From contig NZ_OUNR01000001.1 in NCBI RefSeq assembly GCF_900403705.1, forward strand, positions 868,001-932,000: a stretch of 64,000 nt of DNA, in the 5' to 3' direction. This document shows positions 7,669 to 58,194 of this stretch, in pieces. How positions within the stretch are numbered: position 1 is the first letter of the stretch; the number at the start of each line of letters is the position of its first letter. The notes below the pieces were generated by a model. It made no database searches. It saw nothing but the letters and a program-made list of their open reading frames with translations, and was not told the DNA's origin. Position numbers and translations under genes: made by a program. The stretch comes from Nitrospira lenta. Its GTDB lineage: Bacteria; Nitrospirota; Nitrospiria; Nitrospirales; Nitrospiraceae.

Positions 7669-7844
7669 GCAGGATGCTCAAAAAGCCCCCTATTCTCACC
7701 CGCCCAACCCCGGCGTGCCAAGACGCGCCGTTCCGCGGGCAAAGCCGCAGCGAGTGAAGGCCAGGAGGCGTACCCTCTGAGGTACGTCGAGGGCCCGAAC
7801 AATGCGAGAACGCCGCGGGACAACACGTTCACTGTCCTGCCTGC
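7669..7844. repeat. interspersed palindromic repeat, diverged copy A
   Basis: About 176 bases. Starts with GCAGGATGCTCAAAAAGC and ends with CCTGC fused to the TAG (minus strand) of the ABC permease gene. The middle block, GCCGCAGCGAGTGAAGG followed by GAGGCGTAC, GGTACGTCGAGG and GCGAGAACGCCGC, matches the copies at 17544 and 21089. This copy is longer and its right arm has decayed. The central GCGTAC/GTACGT arms can pair. Confidence 0.7.
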
Positions 7845-8623
7845 TAGCCCATCGCCCGGCGGAACGCCTTGGCTCCACCGTACAAACACAATGCATCAAA
7901 AACAAGCATCACGACGACCGCCATCCCCACATGCGGTAGGGCATCGCTCCAATTGGTCAGAATCAGCGGCCGCACGGCGTCGATCGCCCAGGTCATGGGA
8001 TTGAATTGCGCCAGGACACTCATCCAAGTCGGCATGGCCGTCAACGGCACCAGCGCCGAGCTAAGGAAAATCATCGGCAGCGACAGAAAGCCGAGGACCG
8101 AGAAAAAGTCGCCGTGGCTCTTCACCGAAAACGCCATCGCCATCGAGATGGCCGTCAACCCCACACCGAACAACATGCCGATCACGAGAATCATCGCCAC
8201 ACCGGCCAACCCTGTCGCCGGATGCACGCCGAAGAGAAACGCGATGCCCAGGATCACCAACACTTGCAGCGACGTGATCGTCATCACAAAGATAAACCGG
8301 CTGAGAATCACTGAACTCCGATGAATCGGCGCGGACATCAACCGTTCAAGAAATCCGTTCTCCTTATCAAAGAGCAAATCCACGCCGCCGGCCAGTCCGT
8401 TATTCAGCACCGTCATCACGACGACACCGGCCGCCAGGAAGCTGATGTAATTGGGTGCCTGTGTGACCTGCACATCCGCCGCCCGCTGAAACAGATTGCC
8501 GAAAAAGATCAGCCAGAACAGCATCGGCTGGACCAGCGTAAAGAGCATGCTGAATTTTTCCCGACTCAGTCGGCGGACCCACCGCATTGTCAGGGCCCCG
8601 ATTTCTTGCCAATAGTGCGCCAT
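7844..8623 (-). CDS. ABC-2 type transporter permease
   Basis: About 259 residues from the ATG at 8623, which has a good ribosome site (TAGGAGATAC); an upstream in-frame start at 8659 would overlap the ATPase gene. Six membrane segments are visible, typical of ABC-2/DrrB permeases, with the family signature region FLSLPMIFLSSALVPLTAMP and FDKENGFLERLMSAPI. Acts with the ATP-binding protein encoded just upstream to export an unidentified substrate. The stop codon TAG abuts repeat copy A. Confidence 0.9.
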   Translation of the reverse strand: MAHYWQEIGALTMRWVRRLSREKFSMLFTLVQPMLFWLIFFGNLFQRAADVQVTQAPNYISFLAAGVVVMTVLNNGLAGGVDLLFDKENGFLERLMSAPIHRSSVILSRFIFVMTITSLQVLVILGIAFLFGVHPATGLAGVAMILVIGMLFGVGLTAISMAMAFSVKSHGDFFSVLGFLSLPMIFLSSALVPLTAMPTWMSVLAQFNPMTWAIDAVRPLILTNWSDALPHVGMAVVVMLVFDALCLYGGAKAFRRAMG

Positions 8624-17543: not shown

Positions 17544-17671
17544 CAGGCGGCTGATCAAAAATCCCGTCCAGCAAGGCCGCAGCGAGCGAGAAGACGAGGC
17601 GTACTTTGTACTGTACGTGGAGCCTTTGAGCGCCGCGAGAACGCTGCTGGCGGAATTTTTCAGCAGCCGTT
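17544..17671. repeat. interspersed palindromic repeat, copy B
   Basis: About 128 bases. Left arm CAGGCGGCTGATCAAAAAT, right arm GGCGGAATTTTTCAGCAGCCG. Middle blocks GCAAGGCCGCAGCGAGCGA, AGGCGTACTTTGTACTGTACG and GCGCCGCGAGAACG match copies A and C. Ends against the stop codon of the lipoprotein gene at 17671. Confidence 0.8.
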
Positions 17672-18153
17672 CAGTAGCCCGTCTTCGCTCCTGCACTGCC
17701 ATGCTGATACCGGCTGCTATAGGAGAGCATCTGATCGGAGAGGCCCTTCCATTCGTCGGCCGTCATCAACTCTTTCATCTTGAACCGCAGGCTCAGAATC
17801 TTCGCCGAGGTCTTCATGCGCTGATTGTTCCCCTCATCGAGGACCTTGGTGAATTCCTCAGGGGAGACCGTATAGCTCGCATTGAGCGTATACAGCTGGC
17901 GATGATAGGCGCGCTCCTGCTCTCGGCCCGCCTTCAATTCCGTGACGATCTCACTAACCAGAGCCTTCACCTGCGTGGCCTTGGCCGGATCCTTTACCGT
18001 CCGATCGATCAACCCCGCCATGTCCTGCTGCCCTTTTTGCCAATAGGCGTCGCTCTTGCCCGACTCCATCATCCCGTGATGATGATGGGAGGAACAGCCG
18101 CCTAACGCCAACAGCCCGACGACCGACAACACCATCCAACGCATCTTCGTCAT
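17671..18153 (-). CDS. small lipoprotein, CpxP/Spy-like
   Basis: 160 residues from ATG at 18153. Lipobox LLALGGCSS with a His-rich patch SSHHHHGMM just after the Cys. The remainder is helical and rich in Lys and Glu, ending KTSAKILSLRFKMKELMTADEWKGLSDQML, similar to the LTxxQ-containing periplasmic metal-sensor/chaperone family of CpxP and Spy but without clear LTxxQ repeats. Metal binding by the His patch is inference. Convergent with nothing; the gene above on the plus strand is divergent. Confidence 0.7.
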   Translation of the reverse strand: MTKMRWMVLSVVGLLALGGCSSHHHHGMMESGKSDAYWQKGQQDMAGLIDRTVKDPAKATQVKALVSEIVTELKAGREQERAYHRQLYTLNASYTVSPEEFTKVLDEGNNQRMKTSAKILSLRFKMKELMTADEWKGLSDQMLSYSSRYQHGSAGAKTGY

Positions 18154-21043: not shown

Positions 21044-21088
21044 GGATTGTAACGCAGCCCCATAGGCAACGGCTAGAGACAACGGCCT

Positions 21089-21215
21089 GCAGGCTGCTCA
21101 AAAAGACCGTCCAGCAAGGCCGCAGCAAGCGAAGAGGCGACATCGTACTTTGTGCCGTACGGTGAGCCTCTAAGCGCCGCGAGAACGCCACTGGCGGGTT
21201 TTTTCAGCAGCCTGC
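21089..21215. repeat. interspersed palindromic repeat, copy C (best preserved)
   Basis: 127 bases. Left arm GCAGGCTGCTCAAAAAGACC and right arm GGTTTTTTCAGCAGCCTGC pair nearly fully. Middle contains GCAAGGCCGCAGCAAGCGAA, a GTACTTTGTGCCGTAC stem and GCGCCGCGAGAACGCC. Right end CCTGC runs straight into the minus-strand TAG of the next gene. The T-run and paired arms could act as a terminator for the minus-strand gene. Confidence 0.85.
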
Positions 21216-22060
21216 TAGGGATGCCGCCACCAGGACACCACCGGAGGGATGCGCCGCCGACGCAACGTCACGCGCAATTCACAGGAACGTTCGCACTTCA
21301 AGCCTGCCGTCTGACAAAGACCGGCGGCCACGTCGGCTTCTTCCTGCCCCTGATTGACCATCACGAACAACCCGGACGGATTCAAATTCATGGCGATGCG
21401 CGCGAACAAGGCCTGTGGCGCGAGAAACGTCAACGGCATGCGCCACGCCAATACCGGTGTTGGGGTTACGAAGGGATACCAGGCCACGATCGTATCGGCT
21501 GGCTGCGCATACTGCGCATAGTCGGCAATGACAAAATCCGTCTGCGGCAGCTTGTGCACGTAGCCCTGCGCATAATCGTGACGGCTGTAGCCATTATAAT
21601 AAATGCGATGGCCTTCCACTTCGACGCCCGTCAGGGCCGACGGCAGGAAAAAGGCATGGAGCGCCCGGGCATACCAAAAATTGGACGCGCCGACATCGTG
21701 CACCACGCCGCCGACCGGCCGAGGCTGTCCCCAGGCCGTCCAGGCCTGATCGAGAATGTCGAGATAGTCGTAGTTCTTTAGCGTCGTGAGCGCGGCGCAG
21801 TGCTGTTCAAACCGAACATCGAACTGGCGCCGTAACCGGGCAATTCTCGCCTGCTGGCTCCCGCTGAGATGCGTCAGTTGCTCCACCGGCCGTTCGCGAT
21901 ACAGACCGCGTGACCATTCCAACCCTTCGCCGAGCCAGTACCAGAAGGCGTGATACCCTGAACGAATCCGCTGCGGCAGCGAATAGCGTGGCGCGGAGGT
22001 AACGACAGCCGGCAGCGTTCGCTCAGCCTCCTGCACCGGATAGTCGACTTCGGCAATCAT
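21215..22060 (-). CDS. SAM methyltransferase-like protein, degenerate motif
   Basis: 281 residues. Middle part GGVVHDVGASNFWYARALHAFFLPSALTGVEVEGHRIYYNG reads like Rossmann motif I and II of a methyltransferase, with VHDVGASNFW in place of the usual VLDVGCGxG. Other parts: ADYAQYAQPADTIVAWYPFVTPT and NPSGLFVMVNQGQEE (motif near the fourth strand). No confirmed catalytic site. Cytosolic. Its stop codon abuts repeat copy C. A non-standard methyltransferase or a related binding fold are both possible. Confidence 0.6.
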   Translation of the reverse strand: MIAEVDYPVQEAERTLPAVVTSAPRYSLPQRIRSGYHAFWYWLGEGLEWSRGLYRERPVEQLTHLSGSQQARIARLRRQFDVRFEQHCAALTTLKNYDYLDILDQAWTAWGQPRPVGGVVHDVGASNFWYARALHAFFLPSALTGVEVEGHRIYYNGYSRHDYAQGYVHKLPQTDFVIADYAQYAQPADTIVAWYPFVTPTPVLAWRMPLTFLAPQALFARIAMNLNPSGLFVMVNQGQEEADVAAGLCQTAGLKCERSCELRVTLRRRRIPPVVSWWRHP

Positions 22061-25170: not shown

Positions 25171-26346
25171 ATGGCTGGTTTTCCCATCGAATTCGCTACT
25201 CGCATTAAAACCTTACCCCCCTATCTCTTCGCTGCCATCGATAAGATGAAGCAGGCGGCGATTGCCAAGGGCGTAGATATCATCAACCTCGGCATCGGCG
25301 ATCCGGATTTGCCCACGCCCGCACCGATCATCGAGAGTCTGGCGCAAGCGGCCAAGAACCCGAAGCACCACCAATATCCCTCCTATGAAGGCATGCTGTC
25401 GTTTCGTACGGCGGTGGCCGATTGGTACAAGCGCCGGTTCAACGTGACGCTGAACCCAGCCGACGAAGTGCTGACGCTGATCGGGTCGAAGGAAGGCATC
25501 GGCCACATCCATCTGGCATTTGTCGATCCGGGCGATATCGTGCTGGTCCCCAGCCCCGGCTACCCGGTCTACCCGGTCGGCACGAGCTTCTGCGGCGGGG
25601 TCTCGCACATCATGCCGCTGACCAAGGCCAACGGGTTCCTGCCGGACTTGAATGCGATCCCCAAAGATGTGGCGAAAAAAGCCAAGCTGATGTGGCTGAA
25701 CTCGCCGAATAATCCGACATCCGTCATCATGACAAAGGACTACTTCAAGCGGGTGGTCGAGTTCGCGCAGGAGAATCAGGTCATCGTCTGCCACGATGCG
25801 GCCTACTCGGAAATTTTCTACGACGGCAAGCGCCCGGCCAGCTTTATGGAAGTGGACGGGGCGAAAGATGTCGGCGTGGAATTCCACTCACTCTCCAAGA
25901 CCTACAACATGACCGGCTGGCGCCTCGGGTTCGCCGTCGGCAACAAGGACGTGTTGGCCGGACTGGGCAAGGTAAAGAGCCAGTTGGACTCGGGCGTGTT
26001 TGAGGCGGTGCAGGCGGCCGGCATCACGGCACTGGGGCTGGACGATTCGGTGACGGACGGACTGCGCAAGATTTATCAAGAACGGCGCGACACATTGGTG
26101 CCGGGCCTGAAGAAGCTCGGGCTCGAGGTGGATTCGCCGCCGGCCGCCTTCTATATTTGGGTGACGGTGCCGAAGGGCTATTCCTCCGCCTCATTCACCG
26201 CGCATTTGCTGGAAAAGGCCGGCATCGTGACGACGCCGGGTAACGGATTCGGCGCGCCGGGCGAAGGCTATATCCGCATGACCGTATGTACGACCAAGGA
26301 ACGACTGGCAGAAGCGGTGGAGCGGATCAAGAAGGCGGGATTCTGA
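25171..26346 (+). CDS. dapL: LL-diaminopimelate aminotransferase
   Basis: 391 residues, usual length. Converts tetrahydrodipicolinate plus glutamate to LL-diaminopimelate in one step, bypassing the succinylase route. PLP site SLSKTYNMTGWRLGF holds the Schiff-base Lys; NSPNNPTSV, NLGIGDPDLPTP and YPSYEGMLSFR are typical. Good ribosome site AAAAGGAG. It partners dapA, dapB and lysA at 38770-41788. Its last 26 codons are repeated in decayed form at 26459. Confidence 0.95.
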   Translation: MAGFPIEFATRIKTLPPYLFAAIDKMKQAAIAKGVDIINLGIGDPDLPTPAPIIESLAQAAKNPKHHQYPSYEGMLSFRTAVADWYKRRFNVTLNPADEVLTLIGSKEGIGHIHLAFVDPGDIVLVPSPGYPVYPVGTSFCGGVSHIMPLTKANGFLPDLNAIPKDVAKKAKLMWLNSPNNPTSVIMTKDYFKRVVEFAQENQVIVCHDAAYSEIFYDGKRPASFMEVDGAKDVGVEFHSLSKTYNMTGWRLGFAVGNKDVLAGLGKVKSQLDSGVFEAVQAAGITALGLDDSVTDGLRKIYQERRDTLVPGLKKLGLEVDSPPAAFYIWVTVPKGYSSASFTAHLLEKAGIVTTPGNGFGAPGEGYIRMTVCTTKERLAEAVERIKKAGF

Positions 26347-26424
26347 GCAAGACGTCATTCGCCACTCGTCACCCGTACAGGCTTCCTCACGAAGGACAAG
26401 TGGTAGTTGACGGACGTGTGGGCA

Positions 26425-26539
26425 ACCGTCTACATCGGCTTCGGAGCAATCGGACAAAGGCTACAGCCGCATGACAGTGTGTACAACGAAAGATCGGCTG
26501 GCGGAAGCTGTTGAACAGATCAAGAAGGCGGGATTCTAA
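26425..26539 (+). pseudogene. scar of a tandem duplication: folK start fragment, then dapL end fragment
   Basis: At 26425 the bases TCTACATCGGCTTCGG repeat the folK start (TVYIGFG). At 26459-26539 the frame GYSRMTVCTTKDRLAEAV and EQIKKAGF, ending in TAA, repeats the last 26 codons of dapL with about four substitutions. The order (dapL end, folK start, dapL end, folK start) is what a tandem duplication followed by decay would leave. Neither fragment is a working gene. Confidence 0.8.

Positions 26540-58117: not shown

Positions 58118-58194
<77 letters not shown>

Follow-up and report, generated by a model that had tools for sequence, protein, structure and literature searches.

A covarying 125-nt hairpin repeat that often abuts stop codons in Nitrospira lenta, very probably part of a non-autonomous transposon carried by IS5-group transposases

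The window, that is, the whole stretch of 64,000 nucleotides analyzed from Nitrospira lenta, contains three copies of a palindromic repeat, each running right up to the stop codon of a gene on the minus strand (7844, 17671, and 21215; table 1). A preliminary description had recognized ends that pair and a shared middle made of GCAAGGCCGCAGC, GTAC-loop-GTAC, and GCGAGAACGC at these sites. The shared middle was right, and the pairing ends were exact at 21089 and present as a variant at 17544, but the copy at 7669 has the left arm only, its right arm having decayed to CACTGTCCTG. This third copy also includes a nested, hairpin-bearing segment of ~50 nt, which is common to at least five other copies of the genome; the segment, TTCTCACCCGCCCAACCCCGGCG...CGCGCCGTTCCGCGG, recurs at L014, L016, L026, G000:C18:125857, and G000:C1:867777. 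Elsewhere in the window, an 87-nt direct repeat (82% alike, 193 bp apart; 26258-26537) was observed at the end of the gene 25171-26346, and a tRNA-Arg (tcg) gene lies on the minus strand at 58118-58194.

Table 1. Features of the three repeat copies and their adjacent genes; positions are those of the window
Feature	Position	Strand	Evidence
Complete palindromic hairpin element (R1 match 21088-21214)	21089..21214	+	fold z -5.4, blastn, R1
Left outer arm GCAGGCTGCTCAAAAA, with one C of the conserved C.C mismatch	21089..21104	+	
5' side of conserved internal loop I (GCAAGGCCGCAGC)	21114..21126	+	
Apical GTAC-loop-GTAC stem	21145..21160	+	
3' side of internal loop I (GCGAGAACGC)	21179..21188	+	
Right outer arm, which in reverse complement (CAGGCTGCTGAAAAA) matches the IS5-group terminal inverted repeat	21200..21214	+	
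CTAG, right copy of the target duplication; holds the stop codon of the minus-strand gene	21215..21218	.	
Probable left target duplication, CTAG, separated from the hairpin by 13 nt	21073..21076	.	comparison with L322/L323
Gene with stop codon abutting the 21089 element	21215..22060	-	own hexamer gene finder
Second complete copy	17545..17670	+	R1, fold
Gene with stop codon abutting the second copy (TGA here; TAG or TAA in L353, L356, and L357)	17671..18153	-	
Third copy, with decayed right arm and nested segment	7669..7843	+	
Segment nested in the third copy's left arm and containing a hairpin of its own (CCCGCCCAACCCCGGCG...CGCGCCG); limits approximate	7685..7739	+	
Gene with stop codon (CTAG) abutting the third copy	7844..8623	-	

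A covariance model (R1) was built from 25 copies of the N. lenta genome and run on the window with filters off, where it scored 125.8 bits (21088-21214), 118.6 bits (17545-17670), and 58.6 bits (7717-7839). Because the copies at 21089 and 17545 were among those used for training, independent support for the kinship of the three copies came from blastn and from their direct alignment. With the 21089 copy alone as query, blastn matched 32 places in the genome (3,756,190 bases), and 21 other places fell below E 1e-6 (best 6.7e-40). The three copies first described are thus real and well beyond chance. The high genome-wide number suggested at that time was also borne out: at E<=0.01, R1 located 55 distinct places in 3.76 Mb, this count being 60 rows minus five opposite-strand echoes of the same palindromes. 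The copies were distributed unequally between the strands (44 plus, 11 minus), as were the genes in these loci (212 minus, 96 plus); since the bias of the copies was read as following from gene strand and from the stop-facing right ends, no replication signal is claimed from it. When folded as RNA, the 21089 copy reached -73.4 kcal/mol (z -5.4 against shuffles); the 17545 copy folded more weakly (z -1.95), with 4 of 200 shuffles equally good.

The element is an imperfect hairpin of ~125 nt whose stems covary heavily and whose two internal loops are conserved. The outer stem, CAGGMTGCT opposite AGCAKCCTG in its commonest letters, is followed inward by a C.C mismatch, an A-T-type stem frequently replaced by other pairs, and CCAGC/GCTGG. 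Internal loop I consists of AAGGCCGCAG opposite CGAGAACG; beyond it come a stem whose sequence varies freely and internal loop II (CGAGG facing TTGAG), which leads to the apical GTAC-loop-GTAC. Both C of the mismatch, which makes the left arm differ from a true inverted repeat, were kept in 25/25 N. lenta copies and were lost in L553, and the A-T pair was kept in 17/25 copies at tract position 4 and in 15/25 at position 5. Over the 38 pairs counted in these 25 copies, 94.2% of the cells were paired and 25/38 pairs showed two-sided changes. The covariation was 0.361, compared with 0.145 for shuffled alignments and 0.041-0.088 for slid structures, the slid control leaning toward the structure, which was derived from the same 25 copies. 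A core-only model (R2) was not used, as plain alignment had misplaced the stems and R2 lost them.

We then addressed the distribution of the element. R1 matches at E<=0.001 were found in 90/198 Nitrospirota genomes, including 46/46 drawn from the family of N. lenta, and the listed genomes without a match start outside this family. Five complete genomes held 65, 22, 113, 58, and 30 copies (150 candidates scored in each). An exact pattern was found in at least 120 stretches of genome contigs; among the 80 listed, 79 carried the names of Nitrospira or other Nitrospirota and one that of Nitrospinota. The matches continued in 13 genomes of other families, chosen among those with matches; there, the loops and the apical stem persisted and the outer stem could differ greatly (for example, in L282/L294 and L291). 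Across 32 phylum-wide matches, the covariation was 0.539 against 0.159 (shuffled) and 0.046-0.105 (slid), in an alignment fitted to R1 that leans toward the model structure. The loop letters were invariant or nearly so over 45 sequences. Since the loops are conserved and the stems covary across the phylum, we concluded that, at least in the lineage of active copies, the pairing has been preserved, whether in folded RNA or in folded DNA. The same core, again with a different outer stem, is present on a plasmid of Trichlorobacter lovleyi (Thermodesulfobacteriota), where it lies in the intergenic gap that follows a DUF2149 gene (E 2e-4 in 7.3 billion bases); as the single match in another phylum, it is slim evidence of breadth beyond Nitrospirota. 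The most unusual property of the repeat is that its core loops were kept phylum-wide, and once in a Thermodesulfobacteriota plasmid, and its outer stem was replaced.

Apart from the T. lovleyi plasmid, searches of phages and plasmids gave no match for the copies tried, or weak chance matches, and three narrow patterns had no match in viral contigs. With a loose pattern in viral contigs (IMG/VR), 3 of the 80 loci listed held R1 matches (L404, L456, and L457); these viral-classed contigs could be host DNA or a phage transfer. Rfam had no match to the element in the window or in copies from N. lenta and from distant genomes; three sub-threshold matches lay elsewhere in the loci searched. In the literature searched, main texts mostly from outside subscription journals, no description of the element was found. 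The repeat presumably resembles repeats of delta-proteobacteria.

The limits of the mobile unit were determined in G055, a 4,317,083-base genome taken as Ca. Nitrospira defluvii (FP929003.1). Near-identical copies in this genome share ~206 bp and diverge at once outside, and the same four bases (CTAG, CTAA, CTAC, or TTAG) were present on both sides in 15/18 copies, the three without matching flanks being L227, L230, and L235. The unit starts with CAGGYTGCGGAAAAACTC, followed mostly by one of two left modules and then by the hairpin; in L234, a left module from one group is joined to the other group's hairpin. An IS5-type left inverted repeat lies ~74 bp upstream of the hairpin, and the hairpin is the right end. 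Longer versions (273, 317, and 348 bp) are extended by additional segments within the hairpin, and nested segments other than that of the window were seen inside copies of this genome (L239-L242). The hairpin also forms tandem arrays there, repeating every ~130 bp (L236 and L237; G055:C1:421837-426088 and 2713576-2717833).

A complete element with the same 18-bp end, 1324 bp in length and with TTAG on both sides, was located at L238:1771-3094. Its transposase of 342 aa scored 278.9 bits with NF033581 (IS5_4 family; cut-off 140) and contains the Pfam domains DUF772 and DDE_Tnp_1. Related IS5 genes occurred in 15/60 genomes of the family, and many complete elements had these ends and YTAR duplications. 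An autonomous IS carrying the hairpin internally was rejected, as the hairpin was inside the IS in 0/21 IS5 loci, and two hairpins lay outside it. The partner transposase that the preliminary description proposed to look for has a candidate in the family, of the IS5 group and with matching ends; but the N. lenta genome gave no match to this IS5 transposase family, so no current mover is at hand there.

The left part of the unit was unequally retained. A left-repeat-like stretch (at least 11/15 positions, starting between -95 and -55; 0-2 in control windows) was present upstream in 16/18 copies of G055 and in 7/20 of G195/G077, all of these between -75 and -70, and in 4/55 of N. lenta, and most N. 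lenta copies had no clean duplication on the left. Two of these four N. lenta copies had the stretch at -73, with a stop codon exactly there. These counts indicated that the left part decays and the hairpin remains. Taken together, the repeat is short and non-coding (125-206 bp, up to 348 bp with nested inserts), reaches 55 copies in N. lenta, shares its 18-bp end with the IS5_4 element of L238, has a target duplication of the IS type in 15/18 copies of G055 that is mostly lost in the old N. lenta copies, and occupies sites that are filled in some relatives and empty in others. Thus, we proposed that the repeat is very probably the structured right-hand part of a ~200-bp non-autonomous transposon (MITE) carried by IS5-group DDE transposases, which agrees with its early description as possibly MITE-like. 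The unit limits, the perfect target duplications, the ends identical to those of complete IS5 elements, and the lineage-specific presence can all be read from the genomes; judged from these, cross-mobilization by IS5 transposases is probably what moves the element.

The position of the copies relative to genes is in line with the YTAR target. According to our own hexamer gene finder, 28/55 N. lenta copies face a gene whose stop codon is -1 to 2 nt from the right end, with three more within 6 nt; the left hairpin end was within 3 nt of such a stop codon in 1/55. Since YTAR contains TAG or TAA, an insertion there restores the stop codon. Among the 18 copies of G055, a stop codon was at the left limit of the unit in four and at the right limit in five, and insertion thus seems to be without orientation preference; that right ends predominate at stop codons among old copies may be due to retention, or to left parts having been lost. 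The gene at the 21089 site has CTAG at its end, and CTAG occurs again 13 nt past the hairpin. In 30 orthologous loci, R1 matched at this site in the N. lenta locus only; L325-L327 keep only the stop-side arm, and L322 and L323 have nothing. Similarly, the element at the 17545 site was present in the N. lenta locus only among 30 loci, and L353, L356, and L357, with TAG or TAA stop codons, are without it. Across the 17671 gene from this site, R1 gave a match in L365 and L379, a copy common to two relatives, and there were weak matches in L356 and L357 away from the 17545 site. Another site was filled in L504 and without the element in L518.

To what extent copies are constrained after insertion was addressed with G243 and G226 (35 loci each, of 37 and 43 listed places). 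At four shared sites, the element identities were 0.897, 0.960, 0.889, and 0.640, compared with 0.55-0.93 in the flanks, so that copies and flanks are conserved to about the same degree; two-sided changes numbered 0, 0, 3, and 7, and broken pairs 6, 1, 3, and 7, with the fourth pair perhaps representing two separate insertions. Paired changes were thus not in excess over these four pairs (10 two-sided, 17 broken), which speaks against strong constraint in place after insertion. In L507 and L537 (G226/G243), the element was in opposite orientation in the orthologous region, possibly from two separate insertions.

A host-encoded structured RNA or terminator family, kept for termination or RNA stability and mobile only secondarily or anciently, would be a possible but rather unlikely explanation. 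It agrees with the location of copies at gene 3' ends, with their under-representation in divergent gaps (7/54 copies, compared with 14/29 window gaps of at least 120 bp; p 0.001), with the strong covariation, and with the hairpin plus T run on both strands in many copies; in addition, one orthologous copy was 90% identical, compared with 88% for the upstream DNA (mostly coding) and 75% for the downstream DNA. However, the T run is frequently interrupted, and neither the A/T tracts nor the folding energies differed between copies at stop codons and those elsewhere (p 0.62, 0.43, and 0.24; 47/55 copies, with 8 short or nested ones left out). The presence is lineage-specific, the 206-bp units with duplications are recent, the YTAR target explains the position at stop codons, and the orthologous pairs lack an excess of paired changes. 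As to the terminator role raised in the preliminary description, the copies do lie at gene 3' ends, but the A/T tract is no better kept at stop codons; a terminator or mRNA-stability role is plausible, with no support from this test. What fits best is a structure preserved in the active lineage, which the host may use at some sites. For any host effect, a 3'-end RNA function as bidirectional terminator or in RNA stability would be our likeliest guess, a tentative one that we hold with less than even confidence.

The covariation could also be mutational, with quasi-palindrome correction by template switching keeping the arms complementary without selection. The outer ends of the orthologous pair L535/L561 do change together on both arms, but such correction would erase the loops and the C.C mismatch, which are unpaired and conserved phylum-wide, and in place the broken pairs outnumbered the two-sided changes; we regard this explanation as improbable. 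Even less probable, to the point of being very unlikely, is a repeat of REP/REPIN type moved by a RAYT tyrosine transposase. The repeat is palindromic, intergenic, and of high copy number, and a RepRanger table row for Nitrospira moscoviensis gives 635 (PMC12306157), yet at ~125 nt it is several times longer than REP palindromes of 20-40 nt, it has IS5-like terminal inverted repeats and 4-bp YTAR duplications, and its matching transposase is a DDE enzyme of the IS5 group, and the REP-like alternative in the preliminary description was not supported. Chance similarity of GC-rich hairpins, named there as the refuting case, has a negligible probability: any long hairpin gains some R1 score, as the opposite-strand echoes show, but the single-copy blastn matches and the loop letters are incompatible with it. 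Integron attC sites were dropped as a candidate, the arms apparently being without attC core motifs.

For the IS5-carried MITE, we proposed the following mechanism. The unit consists of YTAR, the left inverted repeat CAGGNTGYKGAAAAAC, ~55 nt, the hairpin, whose right arm is the right inverted repeat, and a second YTAR, and it would be mobilized in trans by IS5-group transposases. Insertion at the YTAR of a stop codon duplicates, and so restores, the stop codon, and the gene is left with a long hairpin immediately after it; the left part subsequently decays and the hairpin persists. More speculatively, and in our opinion unlikely, the inner ~85 nt, with nearly invariant CAAGG, CGTA/TACG, and AACG and the rest freely covarying, could be an independent structured module that some factor recognizes as folded RNA or folded DNA, and that spread through Nitrospirota and Thermodesulfobacteriota by repeatedly acquiring new outer stems, that is, new transposon ends, to be delivered to stop codons as a ready-made 3' element. 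If the core is bound by a factor, it would represent a new class of structured element absent from Rfam. The proposed origin explains a very common and apparently unnamed repeat of nitrifying bacteria, with between 22 and 113 copies in each of five complete genomes, and provides a simple way for a mobile hairpin to settle downstream of genes that stay intact. Because one family contains fresh, old, and empty sites, it would constitute a natural experiment on whether mobile hairpins turn into 3'-end elements.

Several known systems resemble the Nitrospira repeat in part. ERIC/IRU of enterobacteria (127 bp) is likewise a single long intergenic hairpin of MITE type and similar length, with reported effects on mRNA stability (PMC2229807); compared by description only, ERIC has TA at its ends, whereas the Nitrospira repeat has a YTAR duplication, IS5 ends, stop-codon landing, and conserved loops whose outer stems have been exchanged. 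The RUP element of Streptococcus pneumoniae (107 bp) is described as non-autonomous and presumed to depend on an IS with matching ends for its movement in trans (PMC2229807), but its partner is of IS630 type with a TA target, unlike the IS5 type and YTAR found here. Correia/NEMIS of Neisseria is also a short MITE whose transcript folds into a hairpin (PMC2229807), and, by description only, differs in ends, target, and sequence. REP elements share the proximity of palindromes to stop codons, and palindromes within 15 nt of a stop codon are reported to stall ribosomes (PMC12306157); because REPs measure 20-40 bp (PMC3733652), the Nitrospira repeat is not one of them. Multicopy palindromic families are described in several Geobacter species (PMC2700814, PMC2996986) and may include the present family, with the related core in T. 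lovleyi as a point of comparison. The IS5 group has the same inverted repeat and YTAR duplication and codes for a transposase, whereas the repeat codes for none and its hairpin was within the IS in none of the 21 IS5 loci. On these sequence features, the Nitrospira repeat qualifies as an IS5-derived MITE that works like RUP or ERIC, and it is distinguished by a conserved loop core with an exchangeable outer stem over the phylum, by the C.C mismatch, and by its landing at stop codons.
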